Shown here one piece after another: positions 8,315-19,328 of a stretch of 52,265 nucleotides of DNA. The position numbers and the translations under genes were made by a program. The DNA is from Pirellula sp. (GTDB taxonomy: Bacteria; Planctomycetota; Planctomycetia; Pirellulales; Pirellulaceae): assembly GCA_021299695.1 (NCBI GenBank), contig JAJTEK010000026.1, positions 1 to 52,265 of the forward strand. Direction: 5' to 3'. Below the pieces are notes generated by a model. That model was not told the DNA's origin. It saw nothing but the letters and a program-made list of their open reading frames with translations, and searched no databases. Positions within the stretch are counted from its first letter, which is position 1. The number at the start of each line of letters is the position of its first letter.

Positions 8315-8349
8315 CCTCATTTGAGGATCCTCGAGTCGACGTCGACTCG
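8315..8349 (+). promoter_or_regulatory. Palindromes in the riboswitch expression platform
   Basis: Between the B12 box and the start codon lie three nested or adjacent palindromes: CCTCATTTGAGG, GAGGATCCTC and a perfect 18-bp palindrome CGAGTCGACGTCGACTCG at 8332-8349. The last can fold as a 7-bp stem with an ACGT loop. They share bases, so alternative folds are mutually exclusive, as expected of an expression platform. No U-tract follows, which suggests translational control more than transcription termination. Confidence 0.55.
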
Positions 8350-8384
8350 TGCCAACAATGCCATTTCCATCGAAGGGTTCCGCC

Positions 8385-9242
8385 ATGCTTCTGGCTAGAA
8401 TTTCGCGCGCAGTTTGCGTCGCCTCCTACATGCTCCTGTCGGCCGCAACGCTCTGCTCGGTCGGCCGTTCGGATATCGTCGGATTCGAAGACAACACCCG
8501 CTATTCCCAAGGATCCAACGGCCAGTTCTACAACGGCGACCTGGGAAACAACACGAGCAACTCCCAAGGTTGGTCCAGCGGTGGCATCCACTTTTCAAAC
8601 TCCTACACGTTCGACACCCAATTCAACTACGGCTACTGGTCAGGCTTCTCCTACTCTCGCGTCAACGCCGGAAATCTCTCAGGATTTGAAAACCAATACG
8701 CTGCGAAACCTGGGATCGGGAGCGATGGCTCTGCCCACTACGCAATCGTCTACAACGCCTTCTCGGGAAATGCCGTCGTGACCTTCGGCGCCCAAGTCCA
8801 ACTCTCTTCGATCGATGTCTCGAACACGGCTTACACCTATTTTTCCATGCGAGACGGCGACCAATTCGCCAAAAAATTCGGTGGCAATAGCGGCAACGAA
8901 GAGGATTTCTTCAAACTCGAAATCCAAGGATTCCGAGGGACCGTCGCGACCGGTTCGGTCGATTTCTTTCTGGCGGACTATCGCTTTGCCGACAACTCCC
9001 GAGACTACCTCGTCGACCAATGGGCTCGTGTGAATCTCTCAAGCTTGGGGGCTGTCGACTCGCTCAAATTTGCATTGAGCTCAAGCGATGTCGGGCAATT
9101 TGGTATGAACACCCCGGCCTACTTCGCCATGGATCGCATCGAGTTCTCTGCTGTGCCAGAGCCCGGCAGTATGGCGCTTCTGGGCGCGGCGAGTGCCGCA
9201 GTTTGGCTGCGACGAAGATGGAAAAGAGGATCGGCTCGCTAG
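8385..9242 (+). CDS. DUF4465 family PEP-CTERM protein under B12 riboswitch control
   Basis: The 285-residue product has a signal peptide, a DUF4465-type domain and a C-terminal PEP-CTERM sorting tail (VPEPGSMALLGAAS, a short hydrophobic stretch, then RRRWKR). Family features include WSGFSYSRVN, ENQYAA, YFSMRDGDQFAKKFGG, VDFFLADYRFADNS and GMNTPAYFAMD. An AAGGG ribosome site seven bases before the ATG at 8385 decides the start; in-frame GTG 8349 and ATG 8358 lack one. The cobalamin riboswitch in its leader implies a role in cobalamin capture or use. From memory, related DUF4465-like surface proteins of Bacteroidetes bind B12, which would fit, but ligand binding here is inference. The protein should be exported and surface- or membrane-associated. 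It faces the cysteine desulfurase gene tail to tail, 12 bases away. Confidence 0.88.
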   Translation: MLLARISRAVCVASYMLLSAATLCSVGRSDIVGFEDNTRYSQGSNGQFYNGDLGNNTSNSQGWSSGGIHFSNSYTFDTQFNYGYWSGFSYSRVNAGNLSGFENQYAAKPGIGSDGSAHYAIVYNAFSGNAVVTFGAQVQLSSIDVSNTAYTYFSMRDGDQFAKKFGGNSGNEEDFFKLEIQGFRGTVATGSVDFFLADYRFADNSRDYLVDQWARVNLSSLGAVDSLKFALSSSDVGQFGMNTPAYFAMDRIEFSAVPEPGSMALLGAASAAVWLRRRWKRGSAR

Positions 9243-9254
9243 AACCTCTCAAAC

Positions 9255-10403
9255 TCAGACCAACTTGCGGGCCGCGATGACCCGACCGGCCGATGCGAGG
9301 GCCTCGACCAAAGCTACCCGGTCTGTCTGATGACTCCAAGACAATCGGACCGCACCGCTCAACTGAGGCTCGCAGAGCCCCATAGCCGCTAACACATGGC
9401 TTGCCGTTGCACAGACGCTCGTGCATGCCGCCCCGTCGGAGATCGAAATCGATTCTCGCACCGATTCGAGCAGATCGTCGGCATCCCATCCGGGAAACGA
9501 AACGTTCAGCACATGCGGCATGCGGTACTGGGCACTGCCGTGAATCTGACCTCCATGGGACTCTGCCCAGTCGATCACGATCCTGCCGATGCACTCGCAT
9601 GCCTGCTTGCGAGCCGCGTGCTCCTGAAGTGCCAATTCGGCCGCTAGCCCAAATCCAACAATCAAAGGGACAGCCAGCGTCCCGGATCGAAGACCCAATT
9701 CTTGACCTCCGCCGACAAAAATCGGTTCGAGGACCGGTCCCTCCTTGGGCTGTCGCCTAAGGATCAATGCTCCTATCCCTTGTGGGCCGAAAATCTTATG
9801 AGCGCTGATGCTTATCGATGCAATTCCCCGATGCGCGAGCGGTTCGAACTCTCGACCGAACCCTTGGGCCGCGTCGACATGCAACCAAACCCCTCGGTCC
9901 TCGGCCGCTTGGGCCAACTGGGAAATCGGCTGAATAACCCCTGTCTCATTGTTCGCATGCATCAAACTCACAAGCAACGTGTCGGTACGGATTGAATCGA
10001 TCAAATCCTCAATTCGGACGCGACCATCGCCCTGCGGCTTGACAAGCGTCACTTCAAATCCCCACGACCGCAGCCGTTCAAGCGGTTCGAGCACCGCCTT
10101 ATGCTCGATCGCCGAACTGACGACATGACGCTTACCAGAGGCGAGTCCGTACTTGGCAAGACCAAGGATCGCAAGATTGTTGCTCTCGGTCGCCCCACTG
10201 GTGAAAAAAACTTCATTCCGTTTGGCGCCCACCACCCGACCAATCCGATCCCGAGCCTCATGCACCGCATCTTTGGCGTTGTGCCCGTGGACATGGGGAC
10301 TGCCCGCGTTGCCCGGCAACCATCGATAAGCATCGAGCATTGCCTGCAAGACCCTCGGTTCGATCGGATTCGATGCATTGCAATCGAGATAGACCGGACT
10401 CAT
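9255..10403 (-). CDS. Cysteine desulfurase, class V aminotransferase (IscS/NifS-like)
   Basis: The 382-residue product is a PLP enzyme that takes sulfur from cysteine as a protein persulfide. The fold-type I signature is clear: YLDCNASNPIEPRVL at the start, TSGATESNN near residue 68, the PLP lysine in SAHKIFGPQGIG (Lys203), and the catalytic Cys327 in SDGAACTSVCATASHVL. The start ATG overlaps the stop of the terpene cyclase gene by four bases (ATGA), so it is translationally coupled to the operon and is its last gene. It may supply sulfur for the operon's Fe-S proteins or for a sulfur-transfer step. No scaffold protein gene such as iscU lies beside it, and the general housekeeping IscS role cannot be excluded. 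Confidence 0.92.
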   Translation of the reverse strand: MSPVYLDCNASNPIEPRVLQAMLDAYRWLPGNAGSPHVHGHNAKDAVHEARDRIGRVVGAKRNEVFFTSGATESNNLAILGLAKYGLASGKRHVVSSAIEHKAVLEPLERLRSWGFEVTLVKPQGDGRVRIEDLIDSIRTDTLLVSLMHANNETGVIQPISQLAQAAEDRGVWLHVDAAQGFGREFEPLAHRGIASISISAHKIFGPQGIGALILRRQPKEGPVLEPIFVGGGQELGLRSGTLAVPLIVGFGLAAELALQEHAARKQACECIGRIVIDWAESHGGQIHGSAQYRMPHVLNVSFPGWDADDLLESVRESISISDGAACTSVCATASHVLAAMGLCEPQLSGAVRLSWSHQTDRVALVEALASAGRVIAARKLV

Positions 10404-12454
10404 ACTTCGCCCCGTCTGAAGGATTCAGCACGCCTCAAGGCAGCGACCCGCTCTAAAGCAGCAACACTGTAGCAGAGGGGATAATGCCTCTCGAAATACC
10501 AAAGCTTGGCAAAGTAAAATCCGATCGGACTTGCCGGAAATTCGGTCCCTTGCTTGGTGCCCTGAGCGATCCAACCTACCCCAAAATCCATCGCCTTTCG
10601 ACAATCGTCCAAAAGCTCAGGCTCGCAAGGGAACTCCTCAGGGCGCATCACCGCTCGATAGCAAAGGTCGGCCAACACCTCAACCGCTAGAGCAGTCTCC
10701 TCGATCGACCCCAAGGCTCCCGCTTGCGAAGATGGATTTTCGACCCGCAACGAACCTCGATCCGATCCGGTCCAACTCCCATCGGACTGTTGAGCCCTCA
10801 GGAGCCAACGGGCGGCCATCGCAATGCGAGAATGCACCTCAAGTTTGTTGCTTTGCATCAGCCATGGCGCCTGGGTCGCAGCAAGCCAAGCCAACAGCAC
10901 ACGGCTCGTGCCGTAGGTCGGATTCTCTTCATCGCGAACGTGTTGGTTACCAAACCACAACGGCACCCATGATCCGTCCCGCCGCTGGCGCCCCTTGAGG
11001 AATTCCATCGCACGAAGGATCGACTTGCGCATTCGAGATTGCAAGCTCACGTCGGCAAGGTCGATCCAGGCCAACCATGCGCGGATCCCATGGGCCGTGA
11101 TGTCCGGATTGGAGCGATCAAAAGGTAGGGTTCCCCATCCCTTACAAAACGTCGGAATCCCACCGTCGCGATTCTGCAAATCCAATAACCAGATCGCTCC
11201 GGCAAGAGCCTGCTCCCGAAGTTTCCTCTCAGGTTCGATCGCATCAGGACTCGTCTGCGAGTCCCGAGCATCGTAGTAAGCCCGCAAGGCCAGCAGCGCA
11301 CCGGGCGTATCATCTGCATCGGGAACTCCGCCGCTCAGCGGGGTCCATGACCACCCACCAGGGGCCGCGTTGGTGAAGGGATGGACTCGGGTGTACTGCT
11401 GATCGCAGATCCATTGTTTTAGCGATAATTCGCCAGATCCTAATCGGGATCGCCAGTGGCTCGAGTGGCTCAAGGCATTGACCGAGAGGGTCGAGACCCA
11501 GGTTGCTAGATGCGTGTCGATGGCCCAACTCCCGTCGGATCGAAATGAATCGAGCAAAAAACCGACACCTTGGGCGACGGTCCGATGGCCACCGTATCCT
11601 GCGCCGATGAGCGCGATAACGACAAAACTTGTCAGCGGGATCGCTTCGAGAAATCCACCGCTCTGAGGCTGAATCGATTCGAGAACCCGCAAACACCTTG
11701 GGGTCGTCGCATTGCGTATCTGACGCGCCAGCGGGTTGAGCGATGGCGCCTGCCGATGCCGAACCAATCCGATCGCAATCAAGGCTGGCAAGGCATAACT
11801 GACGACTGGGAGTTTCATCGCCGCGAACCAACTGCGAGGAAACGCAGCCAGTTCAAAGGGAAGTTGCGGTACGAGTTTCCATCCTTGTTTCGCAGACGCT
11901 CCGAGCCGTCGGGTCGATGCCAATGCCATCAAGATCGGTACCGAAAACGTTTGGTCTTTGCCATAGCGAGCCCGGACGGCTCGCGCAATGTCCTCGGGAG
12001 CTAAACTCCCGGCAACACGTTTGATCCAGGCCTCCGCCCGCGAAATCGGACCCAAAACAGCTTGCGAGCCTCCGGCGGCTCGCGCCTGCTCTGGCCCCTG
12101 CAGGTTGTTCAACGCCCCCCAAACCAAGAGTGTCGTACTGATGTTGCTCATGCTCTTGACGGTATCTCCCCAGCCTCCGTCGGTGTTCTGGTTCTCGATC
12201 AACCAAAGCCTCCCACGCACGATCCGTTCGTGGATCGCTTCGCGCATGCGAGCATCCAGACTTTGGCAATCGCAAAGGTGGGCTTCCAAAGCACAGACGG
12301 CCGTGGCGGTCGAAAGCGCGCTGCTCGATAGCTCGCCTTCCCAATACCCATGGGCATTGCGAGCTTCCAACAGCGACCGGCGCGCGTTGGCCAAGAGAGC
12401 GTCAAAAGGGTAGACCTGCTCAGGCCGTTGGGGTTCTAAGGCGGGCTCGTGCAT
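10400..12454 (-). CDS. shc: Squalene-hopene cyclase family class II terpene cyclase
   Basis: The 684-residue protein has the length and double alpha-barrel repeat pattern of squalene-hopene cyclases. The catalytic acid motif DXDD is present as DADD at residues 379-382 (GGVPDADDTPG). QW-type repeats recur, for example NTDGGWGDT near residue 90, RSDGSWAIDT near 305, and RRDGSWVPLWFGNQ plus SDGSWTG in the C-terminal half. It would protonate and fold a linear isoprenoid such as squalene into a polycycle at the membrane. It overlaps the cysteine desulfurase gene by four bases and starts just four bases after the prenyltransferase-like gene. No hpnCDE squalene synthesis genes are in the window, so the true substrate is open. 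Confidence 0.9.
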   Translation of the reverse strand: MHEPALEPQRPEQVYPFDALLANARRSLLEARNAHGYWEGELSSSALSTATAVCALEAHLCDCQSLDARMREAIHERIVRGRLWLIENQNTDGGWGDTVKSMSNISTTLLVWGALNNLQGPEQARAAGGSQAVLGPISRAEAWIKRVAGSLAPEDIARAVRARYGKDQTFSVPILMALASTRRLGASAKQGWKLVPQLPFELAAFPRSWFAAMKLPVVSYALPALIAIGLVRHRQAPSLNPLARQIRNATTPRCLRVLESIQPQSGGFLEAIPLTSFVVIALIGAGYGGHRTVAQGVGFLLDSFRSDGSWAIDTHLATWVSTLSVNALSHSSHWRSRLGSGELSLKQWICDQQYTRVHPFTNAAPGGWSWTPLSGGVPDADDTPGALLALRAYYDARDSQTSPDAIEPERKLREQALAGAIWLLDLQNRDGGIPTFCKGWGTLPFDRSNPDITAHGIRAWLAWIDLADVSLQSRMRKSILRAMEFLKGRQRRDGSWVPLWFGNQHVRDEENPTYGTSRVLLAWLAATQAPWLMQSNKLEVHSRIAMAARWLLRAQQSDGSWTGSDRGSLRVENPSSQAGALGSIEETALAVEVLADLCYRAVMRPEEFPCEPELLDDCRKAMDFGVGWIAQGTKQGTEFPASPIGFYFAKLWYFERHYPLCYSVAALERVAALRRAESFRRGEV

Positions 12455-12458
12455 CGTG

Positions 12459-13349
12459 TTACCAAAAACTCAGATGCCCGAGGCTCAAGAGTCCATAATA
12501 GGTGTATTCGATATCCAACGCATCATCCTCCCAGCTTCCGACAAAGCCACCGCGTGCCGTCCAAAGCGTATCGAGGTAATCAAGGTTCTTCTCGGCGATG
12601 AGCCCTAGGTCGAACGAGGTGGTACTCAGCGCATGCAACGCGGTAGCCGTCGACAAAAGGTCGGGCATGACGATCCCTTCTCCGACGCAAAATCCACCGT
12701 CTTGGTGCATCTGCGAGAGCAACCAATCCCGAACTTGGTTCCCCTCGTCGCTGCCTAGGTGACGGAACAAAGAAGCTGCTGCTGCAGTCGTTGGTGTCAG
12801 ACCAAAAGGTAAGTCGGGGCTATTGGAGTACCCTCCATCGTGTGCCAATCGACTTCGGATGCACGAGAGCATTTCCTCTTGAGAACCGATTCGGTAGCCG
12901 ATGTCGTGCTCCAAACCCAAAGCGACATAACAACCGTAGAGCGAGCCGTGGGTTTCGCCCGGCTCGGTAAAGAACCCTCCGTCCTGAGCCCGAAAGCACT
13001 CGAGCCTGGCAATAGTCCGTTCCCGCAGATCCTCCGGCCATAGGCTCTTTGGCAGAAAGGCCCAGCAACGTGCCAAACAGGACAGATCGACGAGGTTGAG
13101 CTCCTCGATTCGCTGATGCTGCGAATTCAGATACCGAGCGATCGGCTCGACCGGCAAAGGCATTTGCAAGGCCATGTAGCCTGCGATTCCAAAGGTGGAA
13201 TAGTACAAATCGGGCTTGCCCTCCCGATCGCAAAATCCACCACTCGGGTGATGCTGCGAGCGAAGAAAGCACGCGACCAATTCGGTCGCATCACCCAGCA
13301 ATTTGGGGGCTAGGCGAGCGACCTGGAGCATTTCTAGTCTCAAACTCAC
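12459..13349 (-). CDS. Prenyltransferase/squalene oxidase repeat protein
   Basis: The 296-residue product is built from repeated units of the protein prenyltransferase beta-subunit / terpene cyclase barrel type. Examples are PSGGFCDREGKPDLYYSTF, AQDGGFFTEPGETHGSLYG, HDGGYSNSPDLPFG, QDGGFCVGEG and ARGGFVGSWED. No DXDD motif for class II cyclisation is evident, so it is either a lone barrel partner of the adjacent cyclase or a prenyl-binding protein. The start at 13349 overlaps the preceding polyprenyl synthase gene by 59 bases; the internal ATG at 13331 would shorten the overlap. The coupling supports a shared pathway. The catalytic activity is unknown. Confidence 0.82.
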   Translation of the reverse strand: MSLRLEMLQVARLAPKLLGDATELVACFLRSQHHPSGGFCDREGKPDLYYSTFGIAGYMALQMPLPVEPIARYLNSQHQRIEELNLVDLSCLARCWAFLPKSLWPEDLRERTIARLECFRAQDGGFFTEPGETHGSLYGCYVALGLEHDIGYRIGSQEEMLSCIRSRLAHDGGYSNSPDLPFGLTPTTAAAASLFRHLGSDEGNQVRDWLLSQMHQDGGFCVGEGIVMPDLLSTATALHALSTTSFDLGLIAEKNLDYLDTLWTARGGFVGSWEDDALDIEYTYYGLLSLGHLSFW

Positions 13350-15015
13350 TGCACCAATCCTTCACTTCCACCGTGAATATCTTGCTGATCACTCGCCGCA
13401 ACAAACCTTTGACACTGGGGTTCTCCAGTTCGGTCAAACACCGGATCGCCTCCTCCTTGTAGGATTCCTGCAGGACGCGGCATCGATCGGCTATCTGATA
13501 TTCGGTAAATAATTTTTCGACCTGTTCGAGTTCGTCGGCCGAGCATGCTTTTCTCCAAGCTCGATCGACAAGTTCTCGATGTTGGGGATTTCCACGGACC
13601 CGCTCATAGAGCAACGCCAAAGGCAACGAAGGTCGCATGGCTTTCAAGTCGCTGAGCGACTCTCCAGAGACCATGTCCTCAAGGTCATCTCGGATTTGAT
13701 AAGCCACCCCAAGCGCATCGCTAAAACGACTGATGATGCCACAGACGGCCGCATCGCAATCGGCTGCCAAGGCCCCGAACTGAAGCGCCACTTCGAAGGC
13801 CGTTGAGGTCTTCTTGCGGAAGATGTCGAGCACCTGCGTCGAACTCAACGGGGCAGGGGACTTGGCCCACTGAAATTCCGCGCCTTGACCTAGACACAAC
13901 GTCCGATGCCCAGAGGCAGCAACCTTGCTGATCGCAATCCGCTGCTGGGCAGATAACCCGCAATCGGCGATCAACGCGTATCCATCTCCGAGGAGCAAAT
14001 CGCCAACGTTCAACGCCACAGCGATGCCCTCTTGGCTATGGAGCGTCGGCTCGCCGTATCGCAAATCGTCATTGTCTTCGATGTCGTCATGAACCAACGA
14101 AGCCTTATGGAAACACTCTGCTGCGACCGCCAACTTCTTGAGCGATATCGGGACGGTGACCTCCGGGTCATCGACCATCGACTTCCAGACACAAGCGGTC
14201 AAGAACGGTCTCCAACGCTTGCCATTTTTGGCCAACCAAGCTCGAGCGATCTGCTCGGTCTGGGTCGGTGCTGGCCCCATGATCTCTTCGAGCGATTCGT
14301 CGTTAAACCACTCCTTGACCTCCCCACGGAGGCTATCGAGGTTGAGTCGATAGGTCGCATCGTCGCTGGTCAAGTGAATCGTCTCCCAAATCCACTCCAA
14401 GTCGACTGTCACGTCCTTGCAGTCGTCTTGAAGCAATGGAATCGCCACGCCAGGGATCGCTGCGGACTCCATGTACGGGAACGCTTTTTCCAAAACGCTC
14501 AAGCAACTGACCCCTACGATCGCATCGATTTTGCCAGTCTCAATGATCGCCATGACCAAGGCCGAACCTTCTGCAACCAAGACCGCATAACCAAGCCGTT
14601 CGGCTTCCTCTTGCAACTCTTGGATGGTGCACAAGCCACACTGTTTGCACAGTAACCCGAACTCATCGAACGGGGCAGGGCACTTGTCCTCGATCCGCAT
14701 GCACTTGGGGAGCAACAGCAGGCGTCTTTGGTAAGGAACCCTCGCGAGTTGGTCGCGCCAAACCTCGCTGTTGAGCAACACGCCGACATAGTCGGTGTAG
14801 ATCGCGGCTAAGCCCTGCTGCTCGACGCAGATCTCTGCATGCCTGCGCAGATCTGCAATCGATAAAGGAGCGACCAACTTTGCATCGATCACGTACTGCC
14901 GAAGCTTGGTTCGCACCGATTCTCTCTCGGGTCGCGTCTGCGGAATGTTCTCTTTGGGCCTGCGCTCGCGCTGCACAGGCACGGCGCGAGGCAAGGTCAT
15001 GATGGGCAATTGCAT
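13291..15015 (-). CDS. DUF116 domain fused to polyprenyl (isoprenyl) diphosphate synthase
   Basis: The 574-residue product joins two domains. Residues about 30-200 match DUF116: LLPKCMRIEDKCPAPFDE then LLCKQCGLCTIQEL, with Cys105, 112, 123, 126 and 129, followed by VLVAEGS and VGVSCLSVLEKAF. The cysteines could hold an Fe-S cluster or zinc. Residues about 250-560 are a trans-isoprenyl diphosphate synthase with KRWRPFLT, the first Asp-rich motif LVHDDIEDND (about residue 310) and the second YQIRDDLED. It would condense isopentenyl diphosphate into a longer allylic chain. I choose the ATG at 15015 because the open frame to 15147 runs into the radical SAM gene. The fusion is unusual and may join redox or radical chemistry to chain synthesis. 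Confidence 0.88.
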   Translation of the reverse strand: MQLPIMTLPRAVPVQRERRPKENIPQTRPERESVRTKLRQYVIDAKLVAPLSIADLRRHAEICVEQQGLAAIYTDYVGVLLNSEVWRDQLARVPYQRRLLLLPKCMRIEDKCPAPFDEFGLLCKQCGLCTIQELQEEAERLGYAVLVAEGSALVMAIIETGKIDAIVGVSCLSVLEKAFPYMESAAIPGVAIPLLQDDCKDVTVDLEWIWETIHLTSDDATYRLNLDSLRGEVKEWFNDESLEEIMGPAPTQTEQIARAWLAKNGKRWRPFLTACVWKSMVDDPEVTVPISLKKLAVAAECFHKASLVHDDIEDNDDLRYGEPTLHSQEGIAVALNVGDLLLGDGYALIADCGLSAQQRIAISKVAASGHRTLCLGQGAEFQWAKSPAPLSSTQVLDIFRKKTSTAFEVALQFGALAADCDAAVCGIISRFSDALGVAYQIRDDLEDMVSGESLSDLKAMRPSLPLALLYERVRGNPQHRELVDRAWRKACSADELEQVEKLFTEYQIADRCRVLQESYKEEAIRCLTELENPSVKGLLRRVISKIFTVEVKDWCSEFETRNAPGRSPSPQIAG

Positions 15016-15037
15016 AAGTGGGTTCTTTACAAGCGGA

Positions 15038-16228
15038 TCAAGTGTAGGCACCGAAACCAAAATACCAGTGCTTCTTGGCGAACCGGTATATCCAACTCTC
15101 TTCCGGGATCTCCTGCCCGGGCTGGTGCTGGCTGGTCCGCGATTCAAGAGCCTCTAATTCTAACATCGCTGTTTTGCGCTGCGTGGTGTCGACGGCAGAA
15201 TGTTTTTCCACCAAAAGCTTGACCAAATCGGGCCGCTCGAGCACCACACAGCCGCGAGTCGCGGCCGCCGATGTCTTGCGAAAATCATCCAAAAACTCGG
15301 ACTTGGCCATGATCTGGTAAATGCTCGGACCGTCGTGAATGCTCTCTTTAGCAAATTGAATGATCGGACAAGGTTCGATCGCCCCCGATGGACCGATGTG
15401 GTGACTGACACCGGTAGCCATCGGACAAAGCGCTCCGCCACGGTCGTCCCAATAAGGCTCGACAATGCCGATCGGAACCCTTGTTCGCATCGAAACGATG
15501 AAGCGACGCAACTGGACGATCTGCTCGGGACTCAACGCCAATTCAGGCGTGGGCTTGGGGCCAACGACTCGATACGTATGGAACCAAGCATAATGGACCC
15601 CCATGCCGATGAGCTTTTTGAGCCACTGCTCGCTGACCAGATCGTAATTCGTTTTGCACACGCTCGTGGCGACCCCCACAATCAACTTGTGCTTGACGGC
15701 CGTCTGCAATCCCAACAATGTCTTGTCATAGACATTCTTCGCTCCGCGACGCTCGTCGCTGATCAAATCGGTCCCTTCGATGCTGATCAAAGGCGTGGCA
15801 TTGCCCGCCTTGCGCAACCGACTCGCGACCTTGTCCGTGATCAACTGACCATTGGTGAATATCTGAAAGTAACAGTCCTTGTGCGACTCGATCACATCGA
15901 GCAAGTCCGGATGCATGAACGGCTCGCCACCGAGAATCCCAAAATAGCTGTTCCCGTGCTTCTTCGCGTCGGTGATGATCCGATTGAGATCGTCTTTGCT
16001 GATCATCTGACGAGGAGATGCGACGTCGACCCAGCATCCCTGGCATCGCAGTTGGCACGAATTGATCACCGAAATAAATAGAAACGGAGGAAAATGCACC
16101 CCCTGCTCGAGCCGCTTTTTGTACTTCTGAACCGATCGCATCCCCTTGTACCCAAAGTTGTAAGCGAACTTCCATAGCAACCGTGTGTCGACGGTTCTGA
16201 GCATGCGTGTTGCGAGTCGTGCGACCAT
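15038..16228 (-). CDS. Radical SAM protein
   Basis: The 396-residue product carries the radical SAM Cx3Cx2C cluster motif in NSCQLRCQGCW (Cys58, 62 and 65), then FGILGGEPFMHPDLL, the GGE loop that contacts SAM, and ISIEGTD. Extra cysteines (LCPMATG, EPCPII, RGCVVLE) lie in the C-terminal half and could bind a second cluster, as in SPASM-like enzymes. It does not match the short HpnH adenosylhopane synthase pattern. I start it at ATG 16228 (product MVARLATRML), because the frame upstream to 16330 runs through the end of the ferredoxin gene. It lies 22 bases after that gene and 22 before the DUF116-polyprenyl synthase. A role in modifying the operon's isoprenoid is inferred from context. Confidence 0.9.
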   Translation of the reverse strand: MVARLATRMLRTVDTRLLWKFAYNFGYKGMRSVQKYKKRLEQGVHFPPFLFISVINSCQLRCQGCWVDVASPRQMISKDDLNRIITDAKKHGNSYFGILGGEPFMHPDLLDVIESHKDCYFQIFTNGQLITDKVASRLRKAGNATPLISIEGTDLISDERRGAKNVYDKTLLGLQTAVKHKLIVGVATSVCKTNYDLVSEQWLKKLIGMGVHYAWFHTYRVVGPKPTPELALSPEQIVQLRRFIVSMRTRVPIGIVEPYWDDRGGALCPMATGVSHHIGPSGAIEPCPIIQFAKESIHDGPSIYQIMAKSEFLDDFRKTSAAATRGCVVLERPDLVKLLVEKHSAVDTTQRKTAMLELEALESRTSQHQPGQEIPEESWIYRFAKKHWYFGFGAYT

Positions 16229-16250
16229 GGTCAAGTCTGCCTGCTGAGAA

Positions 16251-17165
16251 CTAGGATGTTGCCGGTTTGGGGGATACTTCAACTTGTGCTTGCCCAGCCT
16301 GTGCTTGACTAGCCTGTGCTTGCCCAGCAAGAGCCTGCTCGGCTCGCTGCTTGGCCGCCTGCGCCTTGGACTGGATCTGGTCGAAACTCGGCAAACTCGA
16401 GAGCACTTCGGCAGGGATCTCCAAGCCGTCGATGTTGGTCTTGAGTTTATCGAGGCATCGCTGACGTTCTTTCAAGGCTCGATCGTCGTCACGTTCCTTG
16501 GAGAATCGCGACTTGGCCTTCTCGCTGCGGTCCTTGAGCATCGAGTATATGTCTCCGCCGAGCAAGGCGCTGATGTCGACCTTCATCGCCTCGCGCCGCA
16601 CGTCATCCTGGTTGACTTCGTCTCCGTTGATCGGGCCGGCTTTGTACTTCGGAAACAAAATTGCAACTTCGGGACACACGCGCGAACATGCCGGACAATC
16701 GGTCTTGCAATTGGTCTGATTCTGCACGGTGATCTGATTGGCTTGGTTGACACCATACACATCGAACAGACAGAAACTCAAGCATTGCATGCAGTTGGTG
16801 CATCGGTCGTAATCGATCACTGGAAACCATGGCTTCCAATGCGGCCTTGCCTCGGATACCCCGGCGGCCACCGAGTCGATGTATTCGGTCAGAGTTTCCA
16901 AACTGTCGTCCCGAACGTCCCTGGTGTGGATCTTCAAGTCCCCTTGGTCGGATTGGAAGTTCGCAGGGCGCGTGAAGTGACCCAAGATGATCAACTCGGT
17001 ATGTCCAAGATTCCCCAAATTGGCGTTTTGGGTAATCCGCGTGACGGTGTAGCCAAGGTCAAGCAACTTCGGAACGATGCTCCTTCGTAAAGCCGCATCG
17101 ATGGGCTCTGCTCCGGTTCCCTCGTAGAGCAATACCCGTGGACGCTCGCGATTCGTAGCTATCAT
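16251..17165 (-). CDS. Ferredoxin-type protein with two [4Fe-4S] clusters and N-terminal Rossmann-like region
   Basis: The 304-residue protein begins with about 105 residues of alternating strands and helices (RPRVLLYEGTG, then TELIILGHF) that I cannot place. Two four-cysteine motifs follow: Cys122/125/128/132 in CTNCMQCLSFC and Cys153/157/160/164 in CKTDCPACSRVCP. The C-terminal third is charged and ends in a QAQAGQAQ-type repeat encoded by three 15-bp units. It would pass electrons, most simply to the radical SAM enzyme encoded 22 bases downstream. Its start overlaps the stop of the small Cys protein by four bases. The electron-transfer role follows from the motifs; the partner is inferred. 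Confidence 0.88.
   Translation of the reverse strand: MIATNRERPRVLLYEGTGAEPIDAALRRSIVPKLLDLGYTVTRITQNANLGNLGHTELIILGHFTRPANFQSDQGDLKIHTRDVRDDSLETLTEYIDSVAAGVSEARPHWKPWFPVIDYDRCTNCMQCLSFCLFDVYGVNQANQITVQNQTNCKTDCPACSRVCPEVAILFPKYKAGPINGDEVNQDDVRREAMKVDISALLGGDIYSMLKDRSEKAKSRFSKERDDDRALKERQRCLDKLKTNIDGLEIPAEVLSSLPSFDQIQSKAQAAKQRAEQALAGQAQASQAQAGQAQVEVSPKPATS
16285..16329. repeat. In-frame 15-bp tandem repeat, three units
   Basis: Three units of TGTGCTTGCCCAGCC or close variants lie in the 3' end of the ferredoxin-type gene. On the minus strand they encode the GQAQA/SQAQA/GQAQV tail. Confidence 0.9.
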
Positions 17166-17602
17166 GGTGAAACTCCTGTGGCTTGGCTCTCGGCACCCTC
17201 GGTCGTCTCGGCCTTCCCTATCCCAAGCTTGGCACAGACCGTATCGGCCGAATCGGTCCGCATGTTGACAACCTCAATGTACACAGGCTGCTTCGCATCG
17301 CTGTGGCTTGAGTCGCTCTGGTTTGATTCGCTCTGGTTTGAGTCGGTCTGGATCGCAGCACCGGCCGCCGAAAAGAGCCATTTGACGGCCCTGGGATAGC
17401 AAGCCACGATCCGCAAGCCAGCCTGCTGCGAAAGAGGCACAAGCCCCGGATCCTTGCGAGCCGACATCTCGCACAAATCGCTGACGGATTCAAACGGTAA
17501 ATTCGAATCGATCAGACGCTCGAGCACCGAATCCTTGACATCCTCAGGAAGTACTTTCGCGTAGGCGCATCGGCAATACAAAATCGGTCGGTGCTCGCTC
17601 AT
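17162..17602 (-). CDS. Small Cys protein resembling an HdrA N-terminal segment
   Basis: The 146-residue product has YCRCAYAKVLP at residues 9-19, a further Cys in SDLCEMSARKDPG, and LRIVACYPRAVKWLFSAAG near residues 64-82. This order (CxC, lone Cys, then ACxPR with LF) recalls the N-terminal part of heterodisulfide reductase HdrA proteins, though the flavin domain is absent. The resemblance is my pattern reading, not a firm family call. Residues about 86-100 are a Ser/Gln/Asn/Asp linker encoded by 15-bp repeats. It overlaps the ferredoxin gene by four bases, which suggests that the two proteins act together, for example in electron or thiol transfer. Confidence 0.7.
   Translation of the reverse strand: MSEHRPILYCRCAYAKVLPEDVKDSVLERLIDSNLPFESVSDLCEMSARKDPGLVPLSQQAGLRIVACYPRAVKWLFSAAGAAIQTDSNQSESNQSDSSHSDAKQPVYIEVVNMRTDSADTVCAKLGIGKAETTEGAESQATGVSP
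17301..17345. repeat. In-frame 15-bp tandem repeat, three units
   Basis: Three diverged units of CTCTGGTTTGAGTCG lie inside the small Cys protein gene and encode its Ser/Asn/Gln-rich linker. A partial fourth unit follows. Confidence 0.88.
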
Positions 17603-17652
17603 GCGTCCCTGAAGTTTTAGAGGAGATCGGTTTTGCTGCGGCCAAGCAACAA

Positions 17653-18759
17653 TTATCGCAAGACACGATGGGTGGGAGTCGGTGGGAGCGGCCGGAACGC
17701 CGCAGAGTGAAGTTCCTGTGCTGCCAATCTAAACTCCTCACAACCCTTTTGCAAGGATGCTTCGACGGCTTGGCTCAACAATTGAGGGTCGGCTTCGGCT
17801 CGCAAATTCAAAGTCAATTCCCCACTCTGTAGCGATTCGAGCAAATGATGCGACTGTTCGACGATCCCGTCTTCTCGGACCAAATTCGCCACAGCGATAT
17901 CGTTCCCCTGGTCAGGAACCAACGTCCCCTTCAAATGCGCAATGGAAATCCGATCGGCAAATCGCTCGTGAAGCCCCTCGAGCAACCCCGTCAAAAAATC
18001 ATTCCCATCGAATTCCCCACCGCTGATTCTCCAAGAGTAGTTCACCCATCCGAGCAACGCCTCGCCCTGGGCATACGTCTCGTAGTCGACATCCATCGTC
18101 GTGCGGTCCTGCTGCTGCGGTGACGCCAAAGATGATGACAGAATCGTAAACCAATCTTTGAGGCCCTCGCCGGTCCGGGCGCTGAGACTCAATACGCGAC
18201 TCTTGGGATAGCGATCCTGAAGGGCCCTGGTCAAGCGATCCAAACTTTGTGCGTCGAGCAACTCCTTCTTGTTGATGACGATCAAGTCGGCTTCTTCTAG
18301 CTGCTTGTCGTAGATGTAATTGACCTTGGGAGAAAACGTCTTGCCCGTCAAAATCCCCAAAAATCGCTGCGCTCGGATCGGGTCGACCAACACGCTCAAA
18401 GGTGCGATGCTATAGCGATGACCGACCATCTGCTCGAGCGGATAGACGACCGTGGCGACCAAATCGGTGCACGAGCCGACCGGCTCGGCCAAGTAAACGT
18501 CGGGCTGCGCGTCGCGATCGAGCCGCTCGGTGGCTTCTAGCAAGGAAGGGAATCGGCAACAAAAACACCCCCCCGATATCTCCTCGGTTGCAAATCCACT
18601 CGAACTCAACAAGTTCGTATCGACGAGTCCCTGACTCTGATCGTTCGAGATCAAACCCACGCGAAGCCCCTGATCGGAAAAATACTCAGCCGCCTTGAGC
18701 ATACAGGTCGTCTTGCCCGCACCGAGAAAGCCGCCGATCATGATGTACTTGAGCTTCAA
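17653..18759 (-). CDS. COG0523 (CobW/P47K) GTPase
   Basis: The product has the Walker A loop GGFLGAGKTT at residues 9-18 and the diagnostic metal-binding GGCFCC motif, followed by YLAEPVGSCTD and the NKKE guanine-specificity motif. COG0523 proteins use GTP to deliver metals such as zinc, cobalt or iron to target proteins. An ATG-initiated frame extends to 18882 but would overlap the H-protein gene by over 120 bases. I prefer the TTG at 18757-18759, which overlaps that gene's TGA (TTGA), with GTG 18762 as alternative. The C-terminal 150 residues lack an obvious His-rich metal tail. In this operon it may metallate one of the Cys-rich partners; the substrate is unknown. Confidence 0.87.
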   Translation of the reverse strand: MKLKYIMIGGFLGAGKTTCMLKAAEYFSDQGLRVGLISNDQSQGLVDTNLLSSSGFATEEISGGCFCCRFPSLLEATERLDRDAQPDVYLAEPVGSCTDLVATVVYPLEQMVGHRYSIAPLSVLVDPIRAQRFLGILTGKTFSPKVNYIYDKQLEEADLIVINKKELLDAQSLDRLTRALQDRYPKSRVLSLSARTGEGLKDWFTILSSSLASPQQQDRTTMDVDYETYAQGEALLGWVNYSWRISGGEFDGNDFLTGLLEGLHERFADRISIAHLKGTLVPDQGNDIAVANLVREDGIVEQSHHLLESLQSGELTLNLRAEADPQLLSQAVEASLQKGCEEFRLAAQELHSAAFRPLPPTPTHRVLR

Positions 18760-19232
18760 CACTTCTTTTGCTGCTCCTGTTCCTGTGACAAAATCCGGTC
18801 GATCGCCAAATCGAGGGCTTCGACATAACCCTGACAATCGACCACCCTCGAGTCGGGATTTCCTCGCGCGATGTACAGCCATCCGCGATCGTAAGGGTCG
18901 CGGTCCATGAACTGCGGGTTGTTAGCAAGCTCTGTGTTCGACTCGACAAAATCGCCATCGATCACGCTGTAAAGATCCGATACGGCCTTGAACCCCTCGA
19001 TCCAGCCCAAGGGCAAGCCGACTTCGATTCCATCACCGGCATTTTTTTTAAACTCACACTCGACAAAGTCTCCGAGCATGCGGGTGGCAAAATGGGTGAT
19101 GCCAACGCGGTATAGATTCGGCTCAAGCTCCTGCAACCAAAAATGCGACAACGCATAGCGGTACGTTTTAGGCAAGCGAGTCGTGAACCTCGCACGCCGG
19201 TAATAGACTGTGTTGGAAGGGTCCACCGGCAT
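18756..19232 (-). CDS. GcvH-like lipoyl-carrier protein
   Basis: The 158-residue product matches the glycine cleavage H-protein fold: YRVGITHFATRMLGDFVE, then GWIEGFKAVSDLYS with the predicted lipoylated Lys82, and NNPQFMDRDPYDRGWLY. I use the ATG at 19232; an in-frame ATG at 19292 would add 20 residues. No gcvT or gcvP gene is near. It is followed by a GTPase, an HdrA-like fragment and Fe-S proteins, so it may act as a dedicated lipoyl carrier like the LbpA proteins of sulfur-oxidising Hdr-like systems, rather than in glycine cleavage. Family membership is secure; the alternative role is inferred from neighbours. It is the first gene of the tight part of the operon. Confidence 0.88.
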   Translation of the reverse strand: MPVDPSNTVYYRRARFTTRLPKTYRYALSHFWLQELEPNLYRVGITHFATRMLGDFVECEFKKNAGDGIEVGLPLGWIEGFKAVSDLYSVIDGDFVESNTELANNPQFMDRDPYDRGWLYIARGNPDSRVVDCQGYVEALDLAIDRILSQEQEQQKKC

Positions 19233-19328
19233 GAGGTCGTCGACTCTTTGGGATGCAATGCAGTGCAGGAAACCGAGGCTCAGTGCGTGCATAAGACCCC
19301 GGAAAAGTCCAGTCTATCCGGCATCCGT

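Follow-up and report, generated by a model that had tools for sequence, protein, structure and literature searches.

In this study, we analysed a stretch of 52,265 nucleotides (the window; contig C124 of host genome G000, 5.49 Mb and 95.1% complete) from a Pirellula sp. and found a cluster of nine genes that is best read as a pathway, not described before, to a cyclised polyprenoid, and as a variant of squalene-hopene cyclase (SHC)-type isoprenoid biosynthesis. Among its products are a protein fusing a DUF116 domain to a polyprenyl synthetase (hereafter the fusion) and a divergent class II terpene cyclase. We give a probability of about 0.5 to the reading that the nine genes form one dedicated biosynthetic system, which would build a long-chain polyprenyl lipid and close it into rings, with no need of squalene in at least some hosts. 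It draws on the order of the genes, their co-occurrence and the conservation of motifs, and on the finding that the cyclase gene lies near the fusion in genomes with no detected squalene/phytoene-synthase homologue.

The nine open reading frames (ORFs), read directly from the window sequence, abut on the minus strand between 9255 and 19292. They encode a GcvH-like lipoyl carrier (18756-19292; PF01597, 3.4e-23), a COG0523/CobW GTPase (17653-18762; PF02492, 4.6e-23), a small four-cysteine protein, here SmallC (17162-17602), with no match among Pfam and NCBIfam models, a two-cluster ferredoxin with an N-terminal domain (16251-17165; two [4Fe-4S] motifs, Fer4 models), a radical SAM enzyme (15038-16228; PF04055, 3.1e-15), the fusion (13291-15015; PF01976, 8.5e-34, and PF00348, 1.9e-38, in one frame), a prenyltransferase-repeat (alpha-alpha toroid) protein (12459-13349; PF00432, 2e-14), the SHC-like cyclase (10400-12454; PF13243, 1.4e-21, and PF13249, 8.8e-10), and a class-V aminotransferase-type cysteine desulfurase with DndA (TIGR03235) as nearest model (9255-10403). 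This bears out, by ORF, Pfam and NCBIfam analyses, the compact minus-strand set of nine named families that an earlier sequence-only reading of this DNA had listed. The three four-base overlaps it reported are also found: those at 17162-17165 and 10400-10403 read ATGA, and that of the GcvH and CobW genes at 18756-18759 holds provided that CobW starts at TTG 18759, a GTG at 18762 being also in frame. For the radical SAM enzyme and the fusion, the long ORFs begin within neighbouring genes; the ATGs at 16228 and 15015 are likelier starts and leave gaps of ~22 bases.

Comparison of neighbourhoods, the check that the sequence-only reading had proposed, found the genes kept together across phyla and co-occurring. 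At least 561 relatives of the DUF116 half were found in a scan of genome contigs. The best 80 of these by likeness to the window, a choice that carries a selection bias, lie on contigs titled mostly Planctomycetota, Verrucomicrobiota and Acidobacteriota, plus one Lentisphaerales and one Bacteroidales, and many of their neighbourhoods also match the cluster. Two cultured strains are among the carriers, Aeoliella straminimaris ICT_H6.2 (L075) and Chthoniobacter flavus Ellin428 (L121). When 40 planctomycete loci of 7.9-20 kb were compared by tblastn, cluster genes surrounded the fusion in most, and the fusion stood alone in a few, such as L070. A wider set of 130 fusion-hit loci, 124 of them distinct, included 70 with long flanks, which were divided into 46 of type A and 24 more distant ones of type B or other. 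Near the type-A fusions we found a radical SAM gene in 40 loci, the toroid gene in 37, SmallC and ferredoxin in 34 each, CobW in 33, GcvH in 32, and the cyclase and desulfurase in 27 each. GcvH, CobW, SmallC, ferredoxin, radical SAM and toroid genes were all near the fusion in 32 of the 46; the order GcvH, CobW, SmallC, ferredoxin, fusion, toroid was kept in 31 of these 32, and the cyclase was also present in 26. In type B and other loci, the cyclase was the most frequent partner (20 loci), followed by a radical SAM gene (15), ferredoxin (14), the toroid protein (11) and GcvH (9). The upstream neighbours of the cluster in the window (a symporter, a dehydrogenase-like protein and an ABC permease) recur in only 1/46 type-A loci, whereas the cluster partners recur in 27-40/46, which speaks against chance proximity. 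The single recurrence is L071 (titled Pirellula sp.), a close relative whose DUF116 segment is identical to that of the window and whose cluster proteins are 84-98% identical.

The nine genes act as one inherited system also when whole genomes are considered. Among 392 genomes of the planctomycete phylum, a sample not selected by likeness to the window, the fusion was found in 96 (matches reaching the DUF116 part, picked by hand and counting partial ones at contig ends) and SmallC in 94 (by a profile, A3, that includes a type-B domain fused to ferredoxin). Both were present in 91 genomes, the fusion only in five, SmallC only in three and neither in 293 (Fisher p 9e-79, uncorrected for kinship). 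In the phylum of Chthoniobacter, matches to this domain's profile (DUF116) were found in 31/194 genomes, always within a frame of more than 500 codons. Twelve Verrucomicrobiota genomes have a fusion locus without partners, and SmallC was found in ten of them, with none for L136 and L140; in L142 it lies inside the fusion locus itself, and in the genomes of L135 and L150 it lies ~13 kb from the fusion, on a contig of equal size. In nine SmallC loci that were fetched, ferredoxin adjoins SmallC on the same strand in eight and lies 5 kb off in L180; GcvH is present in five (L177, L178, L179, L181 and L185), and CobW in four of these five. As a separate observation, a relative of the desulfurase (31-35% identical) lies divergently just before GcvH in ten Verrucomicrobiota loci (L102, L104, L109, L116, L120, L127, L177, L178, L181 and L185).

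The question of substrate was addressed with PF00494, the squalene/phytoene synthase family to which HpnC and HpnD belong. No PF00494 match was found in 20 of the 96 fusion genomes. A locus of 7.9-20 kb had been fetched for 14 of these 20 (none for G028, G036, G041, G075, G114 and G314), and the cyclase lies within ~10 kb of the fusion in 11 (G025, G031, G057, G079, G183, G200, G241, G284, G307, G341 and G344), with no cyclase near the fusion in G065, where the contig ends in the toroid gene, and in G126 and G145. Of the 11, G307 is a single contig with 100% completeness, and G057, G200, G344 and G284 are 96-99% complete. Because 11/14 of these loci keep the cyclase near the fusion, the cyclase in PF00494-free hosts is probably independent of squalene from known synthases and uses a polyprenyl chain.

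The conserved residues of the isoprenoid proteins fit a cyclised isoprenoid product, as the sequence-only reading had suggested, insofar as the prenyl-synthase motifs and the cyclase DXDD are intact (the window sequence is included in all row counts given here). Polyprenyl diphosphate synthases have two aspartate-rich motifs. The synthase half of the fusion scores 132.6 bits with PF00348 and is assigned to this enzyme family; D354, D355 and D358 of the first motif (numbering from the ORF start at 15147) and D488 and D491 are kept in 41/41 rows, and D487 falls outside the positions kept in at least 38 rows. Seven cysteines of the DUF116 half are likewise kept in 41/41 rows. The cyclase is of the class II SHC type, with SQHop Pfam domains over their cut-offs (77.3 and 38.7 bits) and the DXDD motif of such cyclases (D379, D381 and D382) in 71/71 rows; Cys437 is also invariant in these 71 cluster cyclases. 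It falls far under the squalene-hopene cyclase model TIGR01507 (60.1 bits, cut-off 431.1) and scores 30.7 bits against a squalene-hopene cyclase in PDB. It is the best SHC-type match in the window genome; the other nine are weaker, one of them inside the same gene. The nearest solved chain to the toroid protein is Rab GGTase beta, by a weak alignment (22.9 bits). Protein prenyltransferase beta subunits bind Zn through Asp, Cys and His, and here an Asp is kept, while in two overlapping alignments Tyr seems to stand opposite the Cys and His.

The redox, metal and sulfur proteins also retain their characteristic residues. The GcvH-like carrier scores under the NCBIfam gcvH model (TIGR00527; 83.3 bits, cut-off 115.85), but its lipoyl Lys102 is kept in 64/64 rows and aligns to a lysine of H protein 3ift, so that it is predicted to be a lipoylated H-type carrier. 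Because a second, higher-scoring GcvH is encoded on another contig of the window genome (G000:C129), the cluster carrier is probably dedicated. CobW scores 82.2 bits (cobW cut-off 20.7), and the CxCC metal motif of COG0523 GTPases (C106, C108 and C109; numbering from the ORF start at 18882) is kept in 60/60 rows. The four cysteines of SmallC, which perhaps resembles the N-terminus of HdrA, are kept in 63/63 rows. Single Fer4 models each score under their cut-offs with the ferredoxin, and its eight cysteines are kept in 81-82/82 rows. The desulfurase scores 408.6 bits with TIGR03235, under the DndA cut-off of 480; H101 and K203 are kept in 41/41 rows and C327 in 40/41, with one gap. The alignments in use were A1, with 22/41 fusion proteins; A2, with the window and 49/80 loci; A3, the SmallC profile, with 26/32 (L038 left out for a stop in the chosen frame, and five others); and A4, with 25/37 (L095 and L143 left out for stops, and ten more for a shorter list).

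The radical SAM enzyme belongs to the superfamily (PF04055, 57.2 bits, cut-off 29.5) and has Cx3Cx2C in 84/85 rows. Three further cysteines, C302, C321 and C361 (numbering from the ORF start at 16330), are kept in 85/85 rows, and we read these as SPASM/twitch-like. It scores 40.1 bits against HpnH (TIGR03470), far under the cut-off of 225.05, and its best models include NirJ and AhbC, at a superfamily-level likeness far under their cut-offs. A different radical SAM protein precedes the fusion in L041 (7648-9183), L054 (10235-11737), L100 (1694-3295) and L125 (9-941), and it is also found in L153 and L159; it matches PF04055 only, stands before the fusion or the cyclase, and occurs on contigs whose titles span three phyla. 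We guess that its architecture is of the B12 type. Because a different radical SAM protein takes the same place in these loci, a radical step seems to be needed. Separately, a HemN-like radical SAM gene (L062, 18201-19511; L069, 16852-18162) immediately precedes the GcvH-like gene in two loci, with relatives in L038 (3625-5043, beyond the desulfurase end of the cluster) and in the flank of L067.

From these features we infer the following route, in which all of the chemistry, the length of the chain and the product are conjectural. The prenyl-synthase half of the fusion would make a polyprenyl diphosphate, and the cysteine-rich DUF116 half would carry out an electron-dependent step on the chain, which might remove or reduce its diphosphate end. 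Next, by protonating a terminal double bond, the DXDD cyclase would close the rings, with the prenyltransferase-repeat protein possibly binding or handing over the chain, and the radical SAM enzyme would modify substrate or product. A low-potential relay of ferredoxin, SmallC and the lipoyl GcvH-like carrier may feed the redox steps, CobW may load metal, and the desulfurase may supply iron-sulfur clusters. To our knowledge, no known terpenoid pathway uses a lipoyl-carrier/ferredoxin electron relay. The sequence-only reading had proposed that the product receives sulfur or reducing power from the carrier and desulfurase. This part is conjectural; the desulfurase is missing within ~10 kb in 19/46 type-A and 24/24 type-B or other long-flank loci, and its role may be iron-sulfur assembly alone.

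Several results weigh against a single squalene-free system. PF00494 is present in 76/96 fusion genomes, including that of the window with three matches, and is commoner in genomes with the fusion than in those without it (76/96 versus 152/296; Fisher p 1.4e-6); because these homologues are present, squalene may be available in the 76 genomes. Kinship among genomes is ignored by Fisher's test, which counts each of them as independent, and some of the sampled genomes had also gone into the SmallC profile. Among type-A loci, 6/46 have no nearby radical SAM gene and 19/46 no cyclase; among type-B and other loci, CobW is found in only 3/24 and the desulfurase in 0/24. Finally, a structure search with DUF116 gave no significant match that explains this domain.

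The distribution of PF00494 would be expected of a squalene-fed, hopanoid-like branch, in which squalene comes from squalene-synthase-type enzymes encoded elsewhere, the cyclase forms a triterpene from it, the radical SAM enzyme extends this in the manner of HpnH, and the prenyl synthase does no more than supply precursor. The hpn clusters contain an SHC cyclase and the radical SAM protein HpnH, and the present cluster resembles them in placing an SHC-type cyclase, with its DXDD, beside a radical SAM enzyme that matches HpnH weakly. It differs from them in that both proteins score far under the family cut-offs, in the rest of its partners and in its occurrence in PF00494-free genomes, 11 of which, including five with a completeness of 96% or more, keep the cyclase near the fusion. 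We therefore consider such a branch unlikely, and agree with the sequence-only reading that this is not the hpn cluster. Alternatively, the product may be a meroterpenoid or a prenylated redox cofactor: the radical SAM enzyme, CobW, carrier and desulfurase would make a head group, whether quinone-like, thiol-bearing or tetrapyrrole-like, for attachment to the polyprenyl chain, and the cyclase would then fold the end of that chain. Seven proteins or domains of redox, metal or sulfur type do seem many for a plain hydrocarbon, and both the NirJ and AhbC models and the HemN-like genes before GcvH in L062 and L069 point in this direction. However, none of the nine is recognised by Pfam as a head-group gene or as a UbiA-type prenyltransferase, HemN-like relatives lie near only four of the loci in which additional genes were sought, and the NirJ and AhbC likeness is that of the superfamily, so that this alternative is doubtful too. 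That the operon joins two modules with separate products, a terpenoid (fusion, toroid protein and cyclase) and iron-sulfur/sulfur-carrier maintenance (GcvH, CobW, SmallC, ferredoxin and NifS), might be suspected from the separate genome positions of the parts in some Verrucomicrobiota; it is quite improbable given the almost one-to-one occurrence of the fusion and SmallC across the 392 genomes and the fact that separated parts mostly remain within the same genomes.

The single polyprenoid system has partial likenesses among known systems. The nearest functional precedent, by analogy, is Bacillus SqhC acting on a heptaprenyl-derived substrate: heptaprenyl diphosphate from HepS/HepT passes through YtpB to SqhC, giving tetraprenyl curcumene and sporulene (PMC11708026). 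As proposed for the cluster, a dedicated long-prenyl synthase is followed by a squalene-cyclase relative without squalene; in contrast to the cluster's gene set, the passages on the Bacillus pathway in that source name no radical SAM, lipoyl carrier, CobW, DUF116 or ferredoxin partner, and Pfam and NCBIfam recognise no YtpB-like family among the nine genes. In the sHdr-LbpA sulfur-oxidation system, too, a lipoyl carrier resembling GcvH goes together with iron-sulfur proteins; in the cluster, one of these is perhaps HdrA-like. LbpA proteins, some archaeal ones excepted, mostly have two strictly conserved cysteines according to the LbpA passages of PMC6067878, whereas the cluster carrier lacks this pair, the cysteine positions of the window sequence being kept in at most 9/64 rows, and the rest of the block consists of isoprenoid genes. 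Triterpenes of non-squalene origin are made by fungal chimeric class I synthases; 'Discovery of non-squalene triterpenes' (PMC9177416) begins with the statement that known triterpenes all came from squalene or oxidosqualene. Unlike the class I synthases treated there, the cluster cyclase carries the class II DXDD. The sequence-only reading knew of no described pathway with this gene set, and our literature searches found no description of the whole cluster. The fusion itself, however, is already in print: a section of Makarova et al. 2015 (PMC5898192) records it in Pirellula staleyi (Psta_0175) and, treating archaeal DUF116 proteins, predicts electron transfer and a flavodoxin-like fold for DUF116; that section notes the fusion and gives no account of the cluster, of the partner genes or of how widely it occurs.

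In a tree of 97 fusion proteins, a branch sets Verrucomicrobiota apart, and the window groups with Pirellula, Roseimaritima and Aeoliella; deep joins are unsure owing to long branches. L062 and L064, from the window's own family, are of type B, and several genomes of that family (G121, G205, G339 and others) have a type-B fusion 33-40% identical to the type-A one of the window. The presence of both types within one family would reflect either transfer or differential loss. In several type-B loci the fusion is followed by a protein of ~185 amino acids without a Pfam match (L062, 8401-8946), relatives of which occur in 108/148 genomes of the class, that of the window included (G000:C9). The fusion is also present on nine contigs titled as Akkermansia muciniphila isolates (L091, L098, L118, L119, L133, L138, L143, L145 and L146); because most of them mix with Chthoniobacteraceae and Pedosphaeraceae in the tree, we guess that this label is loose. 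In the window, a plus-strand ORF at 8349-9242 converges on the cluster end; by eye, its terminus resembles a PEP-CTERM sorting tail.

It is possible, and we propose it tentatively, that the cluster stands for a widespread new class of bacterial polycyclic isoprenoid, made from polyprenyl diphosphate by the DUF116 fusion, acting as an iron-sulfur protein, and the class II cyclase without squalene and tailored by the radical SAM enzyme through the lipoyl-carrier/ferredoxin relay, in Planctomycetota, Verrucomicrobiota, Acidobacteriota and one Lentisphaerales-titled contig. Soil and water are common habitats of the phyla in which relatives of the DUF116 half occur, at no fewer than 561 places in public genomes. 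Should the reading be right, an orphan lipid pathway would be common to bacteria whose membrane lipids are poorly known, DUF116 would gain a function, and an SHC-type route would bypass squalene, which would bear on surveys that, as parts of PMC12195314 exemplify, use SHC genes as a sign of hopanoids.

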